Shown: positions 4,997-23,480, numbered from the stretch's first letter. The stretch: DNA of 37,988 nucleotides from an uncultured Hyphomicrobiales bacterium (GCA_903851305.1 CAINNX010000115.1:1-37988); one strand, 5' to 3'. The notes: generated by a model not told the origin, from the sequence alone. Translations and numbers: made by a program.

Positions 4997-5965
4997 ATGG
5001 CGTATTTTGATCTTTCTACGGGTGGGCATCTGCGCGCCATGCCCGGCAACACATTGCCTTTCATGAAGCCGGACCGGATCCGGCCCCGACTATCCGAACT
5101 CAAAAAAATCGAGGCGAGCTCGTCCCAATTTCCACAGCTCGGCCTGCGCGAACTCGACATTCGCTTCGATAAAGCCACCAACGCCATGTGGTGCGCGATG
5201 CGCCCATCAGGCCCCCCGAGCTTCACACCTTCCATGTTGCGGGAGCTGATCAGCCTGCGCCGCGCGATCCAGACTTACACGCAAGGCAGGGATAACCAAG
5301 ACAAGCTGCGCTTTTTTATAGGCCGATCGGATGTCGCTGGCATTTATAACCTGGGCGGCGATCTCGATCATTTCGTTGCAATGATCCGCCAACGCGACCG
5401 CGAGGGCTTACGCGCCTATGCGGTTGATTGCTGCGATGTTGCCTATCACATGACAACCGGCTTTGACTCATCTGTTCTGACCATCGGCCTTGTGCAAGGA
5501 GATGCGCTCGGCGGAGGCTTTGAAGGCGCAATGTCTTTCAACATTCTGGTCGCGGAACGCAAAGCCCGTATGGGACTGCCGGAGATATTGTTCAACCTTT
5601 TTCCCGGCATGGGTGCCATGAGTTTTCTGACCCGCAAAGTCGGCTTGGCTATTGCCCAGCGTATGATCATGTCGGGAAAGATCTACACAGCCGAAGAACT
5701 TCATGAAATGGGCGTGGTCGATATTCTGGTTGAGGATGGCGCAGGTGAAGATGCTGTTTGCAAATTCATAGCTGGAGGCCAGACACGCCACCGGCTACAT
5801 CTCGCCTTGGCTCAGGCACGCCAGCGCGTTCTCCCGCTCAGTTTTGAGGAGCTGCGCGACATTACCGACATCTGGGTCAATACCGCCATGCAGCTTGGTG
5901 AGAATGATTTGCGTCGTATGGAACGGTTGGCAGCTGCCCAACGAAAACGTCTGGCGCGTGCGTGA
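4997..5965 (+). CDS. rpfF: DSF (diffusible signal factor) synthase, RpfF family
   Basis: RpfF is a crotonase-fold enzyme that makes cis-2-unsaturated fatty acid signals by dehydrating 3-hydroxyacyl-ACP and releasing the acid. The family signature is strong: YNLGGDLDHF, ALGGGFEGAMS, GLPEILFNLFPGMGAMSFL and the distinctive C-terminal ITDIWVNTAMQLGENDLRRM. The two catalytic glutamates of RpfF (E141 and E161 in Xanthomonas) correspond to E176 and E196, with the same 20-residue spacing; ordinary enoyl-CoA hydratases lack the NLFPGMGA block. I chose the ATG at 4997 (322 residues, GGAG 9 bases upstream) rather than an in-frame ATG 41 codons earlier with a basic, unrelated lead. The N-terminus is about 30 residues longer than in Xcc. 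It converges on the rpfC-like gene with 3 bases between stops. Confidence 0.93.
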   Translation: MAYFDLSTGGHLRAMPGNTLPFMKPDRIRPRLSELKKIEASSSQFPQLGLRELDIRFDKATNAMWCAMRPSGPPSFTPSMLRELISLRRAIQTYTQGRDNQDKLRFFIGRSDVAGIYNLGGDLDHFVAMIRQRDREGLRAYAVDCCDVAYHMTTGFDSSVLTIGLVQGDALGGGFEGAMSFNILVAERKARMGLPEILFNLFPGMGAMSFLTRKVGLAIAQRMIMSGKIYTAEELHEMGVVDILVEDGAGEDAVCKFIAGGQTRHRLHLALAQARQRVLPLSFEELRDITDIWVNTAMQLGENDLRRMERLAAAQRKRLARA

Positions 5966-5968
5966 CAC

Positions 5969-8059
5969 CTAAGCCTGTGAGAGATGAGGTTGCAGCGCCT
6001 CGCGCGCTGCAAAAAAATCTGCTTCAAGTGCGTGCAATTGAACAAGACCATCAAGGGCAAGCTCGTGGGCTTCAATCGTACGCAACATCAGACACCGTTG
6101 AAAAATTGCCTGCGCACCGACATTGGCCGCACATGAGCGCAAAGCGTGCGCATGATCACGAAAACTCGCGACATCCTGCATCTGCACGGCCTGCTGCAGG
6201 TTTTGCAAAACACCTGCAGCATCACTGACAAATTGTGCAACAATATCTCGTACAAAATCTTTGCCACCCAGCTTTTCAAGATCACACAAGGCGCGTGGAT
6301 CGACGGCGGGTGATCCATCGGCTTGAGCTATTTGCCTGCTCTCAACCTGATGAACAACAGGTGCAGACACGGGCGCCACGATGCGCGCGTGGCGGGCAAC
6401 AGCTTCCAGAAGTGCCTTGGCTTCTATAGGCTTATTCAAACAAGCAACCATGCCAACTTCTGCGCATTTGCGCGCGCTGTCCTGTGTGGCATCTGCTGTC
6501 AGAGCCACAATCGGCGCACGCTCCTGCCCCAGCATGGCGAAGGCGTAGAACTTGGACGCATCAAGCCCGTTCATCACCGGCATATTGAGATCCATCAGGA
6601 CCAGATCAAAATCGTCCTGCAACAATAGATCAACAGCTGCATCGCCATTTTCAACAATCATCACTGAATGACCGCCCTGCTCCAGAATGCGCGCAATGAC
6701 CATTTGATTGGTGCGGTTGTCTTCAGCCACCAGAATATGCAAAGGGCGCGACGCAGCGCTGAGGCCATCCGACACATGCGGCAGCGGGGCTTGTGCCAGC
6801 CCCACATCCATCTCGAACCAAAAAGTCGATCCACGACCGAGCGCACTTTGCACACCTATGTCGCCACCATGCGCCTGGACCAATTGTCGCGCAATTGACA
6901 GACCAAGGCCTGTGCCACCAAAACGATCAATGATCGTCTCGTCTGCTTGTGTGAATGATTCAAAAATTCGCGCCTGTGCTTCAGGCGCAATGCCGATCCC
7001 TGTGTCAGTGACATCAAACCGCAAGCGGATGTTTTCCTCCGCGCACGCCGTAACCTGAACTGCCATGCGCACATAGCCGCGTGTGGTAAACTTGACCGCG
7101 TTGCCACATAAATTAATCAACACTTCTTCAAAATGCCGCATAGAGCCCAACACAAACTGCGGCACGTCCTCATCAATTTGCAAAAAGAGATCAATACCCT
7201 TGGCCTTGGCCTGCACATCCAGCATGGCGCAGGTGTCAGCGAGCAATTCATGCAGATCAAAGACATTCATCTGCGGTTTTTTGCCGATTTCCATACGCGA
7301 CAAATCAAGCAGGGAATTGATGAGACCCAGCAGCGAGCGACCTGATTTACCAATGATGCGCGCCATATCAGCCTGCTCAGGCTCAAGCTTGGTGCCAGCC
7401 AGCATATCGCTCAACCCAATGACGGCGTTGAGCGGCGTGCGCAGTTCATGGCTTATGGAAGCAAGAAACAGACTTTTCGCGCGACTGGCTTCTTCTGCCT
7501 GACGCTTGGCCTCTGACAGGCGGCGGATGAGAACGGACACATAGACCGGCAAGATCACCAATGCGAGCAAGAGCCCGGCACTTAATTCGCGATTGTCACG
7601 CCAGAATGGCGTGGTGATGATGACCATTAAAAAACCAAAAAAGCCAACAATAGCTGATACAAAAAGGTATTTCACACCAAAGCGGAACCCGTTGCCGAAA
7701 ATGGCCCAGAGTAAAATCGGATAGGTGAAAGCCGTCAGCTCATCACCCGAATGTAGGAGATAAGCGACACAGCCTATATCAATCGGAATACCGAGATAGC
7801 GACGAAAGCGCGAGACACCTGGATGCCAAAGCAAATGCGCAAAAAGAAACAGCGTCGCAACCGTGAAGGCGACAAAATACAGGCCGACTTGTTCCAGATA
7901 ATATCTATGCTCGTCGCTGCCACCCAGATGCCCAATGAACAGCGCCAGAAAAGCAATCATGCTGAGCGCCAGACGGCTCAACGTCAGCTCATGTTCGCTA
8001 TCAGGCCGCGCTGACAAGCGCAGCTTGATCCAGGCAAAGAGTCGCGCCAAGATGTGCAT
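5969..8059 (-). CDS. rpfC: RpfC-like hybrid sensor histidine kinase
   Basis: A membrane sensor of DSF-type signals, 696 residues from the ATG at 8059. The N-terminus ([13 protein letters not shown]) resembles RpfC just before its membrane part. About five membrane segments follow (residues 30-180), including [11 protein letters not shown]. HisKA has H204 ([12 protein letters not shown]), the HATPase domain runs about 305-420 ([19 protein letters not shown]), the receiver 440-555 has D490 and K543, and a C-terminal HPt domain has H638 ([15 protein letters not shown]). This TM-HK-REC-HPt order is that of RpfC. Longer starts (8095, 8122) would overlap the upstream gene's end; the chosen start is 8 bases after it, so the genes are probably cotranscribed. 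In Xanthomonas RpfC also binds and restrains RpfF. Confidence 0.88.
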
Positions 8060-8067
8060 GATATCTC

Positions 8068-9846
8068 TCAAGCGCTGGCGGCGAGCTGCGGCCATTGCGC
8101 AGCCAGAGCGATGAAATCCCAAGCTGGCACAGGGCGTCCAAAATAATAGCCTTGAGCTTCATCACACCCCTCATCGCGCAAGCGGGCCAATTGCTCAGGC
8201 GTCTCCACACCCTCCGCCACGACTTTGAGTCCAAGGCTGTGGCCGAGCGTGACAATGGCCCGGACAATTGCTGCATCATTTGAATCTTGCGTCAGATTGC
8301 GCACAAAACTCTGATCCACCTTGAGCCGATCAACGGGGAAATTTTTGACATAGGACAGCGAAGAATAACCTGTGCCGAAATCATCAATGGAGACATGCAC
8401 ACCCATATCGAGCATTTGCTGTAGATCAGCGGCAACCGCATCAAAGTCTCTGACCACAATGCTCTCGGTCAGTTCAAGATCAAGCAATTCTGGGGTGAGC
8501 CCACTCTCCTGCAACACGCTTTTGACCAAGTCAGGCATATTGCGTTTGCGAAATTGCACAGGCGACAAATTGACACTGACACGCAGCGGCAGACCCATAT
8601 CCTGCCAACCACGCGCTTCACGGCAAGCCTCGCGCAGCACCCATTCGTTGAGCGGGATGATCAGGCCATTTTCCTCGCAGCGTGTCAGAAAAACGCCTGG
8701 ACCAACAATGCCATTGCCGGGTCTGTTCCAACGCAGCAAGGCTTCCGCACCAATAATATCGCCGCTACGCATATCAATTTGTGGCTGGTAGTAGAGCAGG
8801 AATTCGTCATTTTCTAACGCGCGCCGCAATTCTCCATCCAGTAATGCATCATTGCGTGCGCGCATTTGCATATCGGCAGCATAAAAACAAAAGGCATTAC
8901 CCTGCTCGCCCTTAGCGCGATACATGGCCAAATCGGCATTTTTCAAAAGGTCTTCACCATCAAGTCCATCATCAGGATGAATGGCAATGCCAATGCTGGC
9001 ACTGGTGCGCAGTCCGCTATTTTCAAAATCAGACGCCTCCGCCACCACATCCAGAATGCGGCGGGCAAATTCTGCGGCATCTTCCCCTGAAGTGACTTGT
9101 GCTTGCAAAATTGCAAATTCATCGCCGCCCAAGCGCGCCAAAGTGTCTTGCGCGCGGATAGCTTGACGCAACCTGTCGCCCACATGGCGGATGAAGCGAT
9201 CGCCTGCCGAATGTCCCAGCACATCATTGACTGCTTTGAACCCGTCGAGATCGAGCATATGCAAGGCAAAAGGCTGATCGCCCCGCCGCGAACGGGCAAT
9301 GAGACGTCGCATGCGCTCATGCAAAAGTGTGCGATTGGGTAGATCTGTTAGCGGATCATGGTGCGCCAGATGGCGCAAATGGCCTTCGGTTGCCTTGCGT
9401 GTCGTAATATCAAGAGCACTGGTGAGTACTGCTGTCACTTGGCCTGTCAAATTTTTTAACGGTGATTTTGTGGTGAGCAAAACACGGACATCACCCCGGG
9501 CATCGACAATTTCTTCTTCAAAGGGTGGCAGCGCTTTGCCGGTTTCAAAGACCATCCGGTTAAGCGCCATCGTGCTTTCGCCGTTTTCGGCACCAAAAAC
9601 GTCTTGCAGGCTCTGGCCAATTTTCTTGTCAGCCTCAAAGCCAAATAGCTCCGCTTTGAAAGCATTTACGAAGATCAGATTACCATCGGTGCCAGCCGCG
9701 CATATAGCCACAGGCAGAGTGTCAATCACTTGTGCCAGACGCTCACGGGAATCGCGCAACGCCCATTCTCGTGAACGCTCGCTATGCTCCAATTCGCGTT
9801 CCAGCGTGACGGCGCGGCTCGCCAGTAATTTTTGCTGCTTGTGCAT
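8068..9846 (-). CDS. PAS-GGDEF-EAL cyclic di-GMP enzyme, probably the C-terminal part of a split REC-PAS-GGDEF-EAL protein
   Basis: The 592 residues begin with a coiled linker (RAVTLERELEHSERSREW), then a PAS domain (about 35-150), a GGDEF diguanylate cyclase domain (about 160-325) and an EAL phosphodiesterase domain (about 335-585). The GGDEF motif at 240-244 is intact, with an inhibitory RxxD site (R231-D234) exactly five residues before it. The EAL domain keeps EALLRW (368-373), NLSPVQF, ELTES, DDFGTGYSS and AEGVET, so both activities look competent. The ATG at 9846 falls inside the A4 run where the upstream receiver frame should continue, and the linker reads on naturally from that receiver. 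It is followed directly by rpfC. PAS-GGDEF-EAL is also the core of the Burkholderia DSF receptor RpfR. Confidence 0.9.
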   Translation of the reverse strand: MHKQQKLLASRAVTLERELEHSERSREWALRDSRERLAQVIDTLPVAICAAGTDGNLIFVNAFKAELFGFEADKKIGQSLQDVFGAENGESTMALNRMVFETGKALPPFEEEIVDARGDVRVLLTTKSPLKNLTGQVTAVLTSALDITTRKATEGHLRHLAHHDPLTDLPNRTLLHERMRRLIARSRRGDQPFALHMLDLDGFKAVNDVLGHSAGDRFIRHVGDRLRQAIRAQDTLARLGGDEFAILQAQVTSGEDAAEFARRILDVVAEASDFENSGLRTSASIGIAIHPDDGLDGEDLLKNADLAMYRAKGEQGNAFCFYAADMQMRARNDALLDGELRRALENDEFLLYYQPQIDMRSGDIIGAEALLRWNRPGNGIVGPGVFLTRCEENGLIIPLNEWVLREACREARGWQDMGLPLRVSVNLSPVQFRKRNMPDLVKSVLQESGLTPELLDLELTESIVVRDFDAVAADLQQMLDMGVHVSIDDFGTGYSSLSYVKNFPVDRLKVDQSFVRNLTQDSNDAAIVRAIVTLGHSLGLKVVAEGVETPEQLARLRDEGCDEAQGYYFGRPVPAWDFIALAAQWPQLAASA

Positions 9847-10211
9847 TTTAGCAAATTGCGAGCACGGGTTACAAATTCATGGTGGTCGACGGGCGAATTG
9901 AGAAAATCAGTAGCGCCGGCTTCAAGGGCCCGCAGTCGAAAGCTGCGCTCTTCATAAACAGTAATCACCACAACCGGGACATCGATAGAGGATGGCAATT
10001 CCCGAAAGCGCCGAATGAAGTCAGCGCCATCCATCTCGGGCATTTTATAGTCGGTGATGACGAGATCGGGCGTTTGATGGGCAAGCCAATCCAAAGCCTC
10101 TTGCGGATCGCCAAATGCGTGCACCGTCACATCCTCTTCGATGGACGTGGCCAATCTGGCAAAAATATTCCGGTTCGAAATCCGGTCGTCGAGGATAACG
10201 ATGAGAGACAT
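9726..10211 (-). CDS. RpfG-like receiver domain, out of frame with the following PAS-GGDEF-EAL
   Basis: From the ATG at 10211 a receiver domain of about 120 residues is readable: acidic pocket D8-D9, phospho-acceptor D54 (DLVITDYKMPEMDGADF), T84 and the end FVTRARNLLK. It resembles the RpfG receiver in its FGDP, YKMPEMDG and RNLL parts. The conserved Lys of the KP motif is replaced: residues 104-107 read LNSP. After LLK the frame runs about 40 residues of non-family sequence to a stop at 9726, entirely inside the next gene. One extra A in the AAAA at 9847-9850 would join it to MHKQQKLLAS of the GGDEF-EAL protein. So the separate ORF end is probably an artefact of a frame change; -1 slippage on A-AAA is the other option. 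Confidence 0.7.
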   Translation of the reverse strand: MSLIVILDDRISNRNIFARLATSIEEDVTVHAFGDPQEALDWLAHQTPDLVITDYKMPEMDGADFIRRFRELPSSIDVPVVVITVYEERSFRLRALEAGATDFLNSPVDHHEFVTRARNLLKCTSSKNYWRAAPSRWNANWSIASVHENGRCAIPVSVWHK

Positions 10212-22334: not shown

Positions 22335-23480
22335 ATGTCCCCTCATTCTGCATTTCTTTCGCCCATCGAAGACGTCATCGAAGACGCGCGCCAGGGCCGT
22401 ATGTTCATCCTCGTCGACGACGAGGGACGTGAGAATGAGGGCGATCTTGTGATCCCCGCCGAGAAGGCGGATGCCGATGCGGTCAATTTCATGGCCAAAT
22501 ATGGCCGTGGCCTGATCTGCCTGTCGATGACGCGCCAGCGCACCCAGCAGCTCGGCCTGCAAATGATGGCACCGAAAAACGATGCGCCCCATCAAACGGC
22601 TTTCACCGTTTCGATTGAAGCGGCCGCGGGCGTCACCACCGGCATTTCCACCGCCGACCGTGCCCGCACCATTGCCGTCGCCATTGATCCGGCCATGGGC
22701 AAGGCTGATCTGGTCTCGCCCGGCCATGTGTTTCCGTTGGTCGCCCAAGATGGCGGCGTGCTGGTGCGCGCAGGTCATACAGAAGCCGCCGTCGATATTT
22801 CGCGCCTTGCCGGCATGAATCCATCAGGCGTGATCTGCGAGATCATGAATGATGACGGCACCATGGCGCGCATGCCTGATCTGGTGACATTCGCGCGCGA
22901 GCATGATCTCAAGATCGCCACCATCGCCGATCTCATCGCCTATCGCCGCCGCAATGAAAAGCTGGTCGAGGCAGTCGCTGAGACGCAGATCACCAGCCGT
23001 TTTGGTGGCGCATTCAAAGTGAAGATCTATGCCAACCGCATTGATCATTCCGAACATATGGCGCTGGTCTGCGGCGATATTTCCGGCAATGAGCCGGTGC
23101 TGGTGCGCATGCATCAGGCCAATCTGCTGGCCGATGCTTTGGGCGACAATACGCAAAGCCAGTTTGCAGGCGGCGAAGCCCGTGCACGTGGCAGCGAGCT
23201 CGAAGCTTCCATGCGCCTCATCGCGCAAACGGGCCGCGGCATTATCGTGATCATCCGAGATCCGTCCTCCACCGCGCTGTCACGCGCTGTACGCGAGCGC
23301 GAAGGCCAGAAATCGAGCCTGCCTATCCATGAATTGCGCCAATATGGCGTGGGTGCGCAGATCCTGTTTGATCTGGGCGCGCGCAACATCATTTTGCTGT
23401 CCAACACCAATCGAACAGTTGTCGGCCTTGATGGCTACGGCATTTCGCTGGTCGGCCAGCAACCGATACCCAGCATCTAA
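22335..23480 (+). CDS. ribB: RibB-type 3,4-dihydroxy-2-butanone-4-phosphate synthase with a degenerate GTP cyclohydrolase II domain
   Basis: Residues 1-205 are DHBP synthase, which turns ribulose 5-phosphate into the four-carbon precursor of riboflavin. The metal-binding DDEGRENEGDL and RAGHTEAAVDISRLAG are intact. Residues 215-381 have the GTP cyclohydrolase II fold, but the zinc site is gone: the usual Cys-containing segment is replaced by RMHQANLLADALGDNT with no cysteines. Such RibBA-like proteins retain only the RibB activity. It is first in an operon with a luciferase-type monooxygenase and two hydrolases, so it probably raises flavin supply for the flavoenzymes. I see no FMN riboswitch in the 238-base leader. 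Confidence 0.88.
   Translation: MSPHSAFLSPIEDVIEDARQGRMFILVDDEGRENEGDLVIPAEKADADAVNFMAKYGRGLICLSMTRQRTQQLGLQMMAPKNDAPHQTAFTVSIEAAAGVTTGISTADRARTIAVAIDPAMGKADLVSPGHVFPLVAQDGGVLVRAGHTEAAVDISRLAGMNPSGVICEIMNDDGTMARMPDLVTFAREHDLKIATIADLIAYRRRNEKLVEAVAETQITSRFGGAFKVKIYANRIDHSEHMALVCGDISGNEPVLVRMHQANLLADALGDNTQSQFAGGEARARGSELEASMRLIAQTGRGIIVIIRDPSSTALSRAVREREGQKSSLPIHELRQYGVGAQILFDLGARNIILLSNTNRTVVGLDGYGISLVGQQPIPSI

Follow-up and report, generated by a model that had tools for sequence, protein, structure and literature searches.

A conserved locus of the DSF type with a swapped output in a Beijerinckiaceae-like alphaproteobacterium

Background

To which signalling circuit does a locus belong that carries the synthase and sensor genes of one known type together with output domains arranged as in another? 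The question is raised by positions 4997 to 10211 of a 37,988-nucleotide stretch of DNA from an uncultured Hyphomicrobiales bacterium (GCA_903851305.1, CAINNX010000115.1:1-37988; the whole stretch is called the window below). Accounts of signalling by the diffusible signal factor (DSF) family usually recognise two core circuits: that of RpfC and RpfG, found in xanthomonads, and that of RpfR, found in Burkholderia and enterobacteria (PMC4504480). In the window, rpfF and rpfC homologues stand side by side, an RpfG-type receiver is encoded just upstream of rpfC, and the output is PAS-GGDEF-EAL, not HD-GYP. Our analysis identifies this as a genuine and conserved locus of the DSF type in which the output has been exchanged, a variant of a known system rather than a new system. 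Its nearest named relatives are Beijerinckiaceae metagenome-assembled genomes (MAGs). A quorum-sensing circuit leading from RpfF through RpfC to a receiver-PAS-GGDEF-EAL protein in a Beijerinckiaceae-like alphaproteobacterium probably explains the locus as a whole.

Results and Discussion

The rpfF homologue, a predicted DSF synthase of the crotonase fold with 322 amino acids, occupies 4997..5965 on the plus strand (ATG at 4997, stop at 5965) and is preceded by GGAG about 9 nt 5' of the ATG. Pfam assigned it to ECH, and the match to PRK08788 reached 352 bits. The two catalytic glutamates, which the first-pass annotation had placed 20 residues apart, are Glu176 (codon 5522..5524, plus strand) and Glu196 (5582..5584, plus strand). 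Both are invariant in 17 homologues and correspond to E141 and E161 of RpfF from Xanthomonas campestris pv. campestris (Xcc; numbering from PMC9040811). The best matches in the PDB were the RpfF structures 6dgn, 5fus and 3m6m with E values of about 1e-50, followed by the next crotonase at 3e-14. These three entries are the Cronobacter, Burkholderia and Xanthomonas enzymes, respectively (in part after PMC6361424). A tree of 127 crotonases, built by a quick method and containing long branches, placed the characterised RpfF proteins among the alphaproteobacterial ones. The RpfF clade stood apart from the six further crotonases that the window genome encodes, with 100% support in the Shimodaira-Hasegawa-like approximate likelihood ratio test (SH-aLRT). 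A position outside this clade had been named in advance as a finding that would speak against an RpfF; the window protein fell inside it. Most likely, the enzyme would make a cis-2-unsaturated fatty acid.

Tail to tail with rpfF, with 3 bp between the two stop codons, lies the rpfC homologue (5969..8059, minus strand). It encodes 696 amino acids from ATG 8059, and the open frame extends to TTG 8122. A transmembrane input region is followed by HisKA, HATPase, REC and Hpt domains according to Pfam, and the REC domain matches the solved RpfC REC 3m6m_D with E = 1.5e-23, in agreement with the RpfC-like kinase described at first pass. In Xanthomonas, DSF is sensed by the 22-residue N-terminus of RpfC, in which R15, D17, S18, E19 and Q22 are essential (PMC5391125). 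The window protein reads R18-P-D-S-E22-H-E-L25 at this site (R-P-D-S-E codons, residues 18-22, at 7994..8008, minus strand). Hence, four of the five sensing residues are kept, and the equivalent of Q22 is a leucine. In an alignment of 46 RpfC homologues, made here without Xanthomonas RpfC itself, the E19 position was conserved in all 46, D17 in 38, R15 in 30 and S18 in 19.

The membrane input domain of RpfC (7508..8059, minus strand) was predicted by AlphaFold2 (AF2) to contain six long hydrophobic helices, with a predicted local distance difference test score (pLDDT) of 92.9. In the fold search with this domain no solved structure scored below E=1. Mean lysine plus arginine counts of the aligned homologues alternate strongly along the domain, from 4.8 at the N-terminus through 0.3, 2.8, 0.04, 1.4 and 0.5 to 1.9 at the C-terminal end, which by the positive-inside rule would put the N-terminus and the sensing motif in the cytoplasm. 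With six helices and an inward-facing motif, as modelled, RpfC may read its signal from the cytoplasmic side. By contrast, five helices and a sensor thought to lie in the periplasm make up the published model; a text search of that paper for PhoA gave no match.

On the minus strand, the order upstream of rpfC is receiver, PAS-GGDEF-EAL and then kinase. The PAS-GGDEF-EAL open frame (8068..9846, minus strand, 592 amino acids) comprises PAS within 9381-9816, GGDEF at 8896-9366 with the motif GGDEF and the I-site RAQD, and EAL at 8131-8832 with the motifs EAL and DDFGTG, all of them intact. Thus, the domains named by the first-pass annotation are present, and the sequence is consistent with a capacity for both synthesis and breakdown of cyclic di-GMP (c-di-GMP). 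Among 71 distinct relatives, DDFG was found in 71, EAL in 70 and a canonical GGDEF in 63. The receiver open frame (9726..10211, minus strand) contains the receiver domain at 9849-10211, followed by about 40 out-of-frame residues until the stop at 9726. The window receiver shares 47-49% identity with its counterparts in REC-HD-GYP proteins encoded beside RpfC (L100, L144) and at most 34% with RpfC's own receivers, which bears out its earlier description as RpfG-like. We do not file the output protein as RpfG, which has an HD-GYP domain.

The genome comprises 2.76 Mb in 186 contigs and was scored 100% complete. A search of it for HD-GYP (HD_5) gave no match, in line with the proposed replacement of the HD-GYP regulator by REC-PAS-GGDEF-EAL in this lineage. 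Two GGDEF and two EAL matches were obtained genome-wide, belonging to the same two proteins, and one PilZ protein was found. The locus thus encodes one of only two detected proteins of c-di-GMP turnover and may dominate c-di-GMP control in this organism.

The first-pass annotation had described the receiver as joined to PAS-GGDEF-EAL and had overlooked that the two lie in different frames of the window, overlapping by 121 bases. Compared with relatives, one base is absent near 9848 (9846..9850, minus strand). The site reads TTGCT-AAAATGCAC in the window against TTGCTCAAAATGCAC in L039, which among relatives with an unbroken gene is the nearest and is 95% identical over PAS-GGDEF-EAL; CTC AAA ATG CAC of L039 stands against CTA AAA TGC in the window. 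In all 78 comparable loci (23 from related genomes and 55 of a named set) receiver and PAS-GGDEF-EAL form a single uninterrupted open reading frame (ORF). Over about 12 kb compared with L039 and L040, this junction is the sole frame break within true coding frames. In G012, the closest relative, the pieces on either side are both present, on contigs that end before the junction. Measured against L039, the ratio of nonsynonymous to synonymous substitution rates (dN/dS) is 0.051 in the receiver and 0.026 in PAS-GGDEF-EAL; against G012 it is 0.024 over the last 352 codons. Such low values indicate an output gene that either lost its integrity only very recently or never did. Together with the 78 unbroken loci they point to either an assembly error or a very recent mutation. 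In this 186-contig genome an assembly error is our first and reasonably likely reading, and a mutation that has just uncoupled the receiver from its output comes second.

How far does this layout extend? The proposed survey of rpfF neighbourhoods in Alphaproteobacteria found rpfF, rpfC and REC-PAS-GGDEF-EAL in 55 of 80 named loci, REC-PAS-histidine kinase in 7 and REC-HD-GYP in 2; the set was picked by similarity to the window RpfF and is biased accordingly. Genomes with the layout belong to Hyphomicrobiales, Sphingomonadales, Acetobacteraceae, Inquilinus and Pseudovibrio, among others, and include isolates, e.g. of Microvirga, Gluconacetobacter, Methylopila, Sphingomonas and Pseudovibrio. An even sample of the class showed the RpfC input domain in 24 of 386 other genomes. 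By Pfam check, its partner in these was REC-PAS-histidine kinase in 19 cases, REC-PAS-GGDEF-EAL in 4 and none in one. Among 101 related genomes, 29 carried both rpfF and the RpfC input domain, 3 rpfF only and 2 rpfC only (Fisher p ~1e-19, indicative only because related genomes are not independent). A chance pairing of rpfF and rpfC is excluded. The layout had been called a hybrid of the two known circuits. This term overstates its rarity: the layout is common in several alphaproteobacterial orders, and the output occurs in at least three variants, of which this is one.

On the RpfC tree, obtained by a quick method, the output types, of which four were counted, must have changed at least 5 times. 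In L126 the output is REC-PAS alone. Three further alphaproteobacterial loci (L061, L063 and, from Methylobacterium radiotolerans, L151) have rpfF with a membrane-anchored PAS-GGDEF-EAL protein and lack RpfC. The RpfG receiver with exchangeable output is the real finding here. It is quite possible, if short of likely, that DSF signalling in alphaproteobacteria forms a third core circuit, in which a phosphorelay from RpfC ends at a conserved receiver of the RpfG type and the output behind this receiver was exchanged several times, between HD-GYP, PAS-GGDEF-EAL, PAS-histidine kinase, GGDEF only and none. Repeated exchange of this kind would let one fatty-acid signal drive different second-stage outputs in different lineages.

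Several individual loci are worth recording here. The commonest RpfC partner in the even class sample (L168-L191) is REC-PAS(-PAS)-HisKA-HATPase, without a c-di-GMP domain. In a close relative (L042 of genome G032, 5057-6499) the output ends after GGDEF; EAL is cleanly gone and rpfC is directly next. The layout also occurs in a record titled Mycobacterium sp. KBS0706 (L109), which groups with Inquilinus in the RpfC tree, and in one titled Burkholderiales bacterium MAG (L071), which groups with Hyphomicrobiales. Both are probably mislabelled records or transfers.

The circuit that we infer is modelled on protein families with known chemistry in Xanthomonas and Burkholderia. To detect the fatty acid made by RpfF, RpfC would rely on its membrane helices and on the RxDSE motif of its N-terminus, and it would then autophosphorylate. 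The phosphate would then pass from the kinase to its own REC domain, to HPt and to the RpfG-type receiver. Phosphorylation of this receiver, fused in the lineage to PAS-GGDEF-EAL, would set the balance between c-di-GMP synthesis and breakdown. The shift is probably towards breakdown, since EAL is the more conserved half. The RpfC receiver may also restrain RpfF, as in Xanthomonas.

With the Xanthomonas RpfF-RpfC-RpfG system the locus shares gene order and directions (there, rpfF converges with an operon made up of rpfC and rpfG; PMC4504480), the catalytic pair of RpfF, the domain order of RpfC, the RxDSE sensor motif, and the RpfG-type receiver with its linker. It differs in the output, HD-GYP in RpfG and PAS-GGDEF-EAL here, in the residue at the Gln22 position, and in that neither rpfB nor rpfH was seen adjoining the window locus. 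RpfF-RpfR of Burkholderia and Cronobacter likewise has a gene for a PAS-GGDEF-EAL protein close to rpfF on the other strand; however, RpfR carries an FI domain in place of the receiver, and there is no RpfC. Leptospirillum provides RpfF, RpfC and a response regulator outside the xanthomonads, but in a one-directional cluster with HD-GYP output (PMC8357829). The REC-PAS-histidine kinase partners of RpfC (e.g. Denitrobaculum, L119/L182) share rpfF, rpfC and the receiver-PAS front half, whereas their HisKA-HATPase output is not directly a c-di-GMP enzyme. In the open-licence PMC literature, which makes for weak evidence of absence, no paper describing the REC-PAS-GGDEF-EAL layout was found.

Four observations weigh against the proposed circuit. 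The window as read does not code for a fused regulator. The window RpfF is about 50% identical to order-level relatives and farther from the characterised synthases. At the Q22 position of RpfC, 44 of the 46 homologues carry Met, Ile or Leu. Finally, no biochemical or genetic data were found for alphaproteobacterial members of the layout.

The alternatives to this circuit each question one of its components. The crotonase might be a metabolic enoyl-CoA hydratase without a signalling role, and its score against the NCBIfam RpfF equivalog NF053515, 211 bits with a cut-off of 550, fits this. However, a 254-amino-acid stretch of Burkholderia cenocepacia RpfF scores only 173 bits on this model, below the window protein, so that the cut-off is no general criterion for DSF synthases. 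Given also the position in the tree, the ranking of RpfF structures in the PDB and the conserved neighbourhood with RpfC, a metabolic role is hardly credible. A sensor that responds to something other than DSF, with rpfF kept for another fatty-acid role, could account for the changed Gln22 position and for a six-helix input domain that matches no solved fold; it is very unlikely, as R-x-D-S-E is kept in the window, the E19 equivalent occurs throughout the homologues and the input domain strongly co-occurs with rpfF. Concerning the frame break, two proteins might be made if translation restarted at ATG 9846 or shifted frame. An ATG exactly at the break opens the 592-amino-acid frame and both halves are under purifying selection, but the latter is also expected of a gene intact until recently, and no Shine-Dalgarno-like stretch is evident before this ATG. 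With 78 of 78 comparable loci fused, no conserved frameshift element is involved. A split gene that works is quite unlikely and is the least likely of the three readings of the break.

The first-pass annotation had also likened the output protein to RpfR and considered direct ligand sensing by its PAS domain, which would give a circuit with two sensors. The order PAS-GGDEF-EAL beside rpfF is the same as in the RpfR case, the domain has a PAS_4-type fold with a good AF2 model (pLDDT 89.7), and the Xcc kinase RpfS binds DSF via a PAS_4 domain (PMC4504480). Yet, of the residues by which RpfR contacts the Burkholderia diffusible signal factor (BDSF), i.e. S169, N172, Y183, R187 and N202 (PMC6361424), none is conserved in an alignment of the window PAS with Burkholderia RpfR and E. 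coli PdeR. No FI domain precedes the PAS, the receiver doing so in the relatives. RpfR was absent from the PDB sequence matches of the PAS up to E=10 and from the top 50 fold matches of its model. Moreover, PAS_4 is retained where the output is a histidine kinase and is thus not specific to the RpfR design. The likeness to RpfR is therefore one of domain order only, the output protein is not filed as RpfR, and sensing of the fatty acid by PAS, being unsupported by residues, FI domain and search rank, is unlikely.

If true, this circuit extends DSF-type signalling to a large class seldom counted in it: in many alphaproteobacteria of plant, soil, marine and acetic-acid genera, RpfF and RpfC are accompanied by an output that matches neither core circuit. 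The exchange of outputs behind one receiver would be a natural experiment in which the same signal was rewired to or away from c-di-GMP.

Additional observations

Many PAS and LOV structures match the PAS model at similar scores. A LOV photoreceptor was considered, as LOV structures rank high by fold, and rejected: their identities of 14-24% are like those of PAS domains generally, and the LOV cysteine motif was not seen in the sequence.

RpfF-like genes were also encountered on plasmids. A crotonase of this kind lies at 22421-23035 of NZ_CP060058.1, a plasmid of 99.8 kb whose label gives Escherichia coli and human faeces as its source, and on NZ_CP060062.1. Others are found on Bosea and Methylibium plasmids, with no annotated RpfC or RpfR nearby. 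Elsewhere in the window, a KGG stress-repeat protein (PF10685; 1841-2140, plus strand) adjoins PhyR (845-1657), likely forming a general-stress pair.

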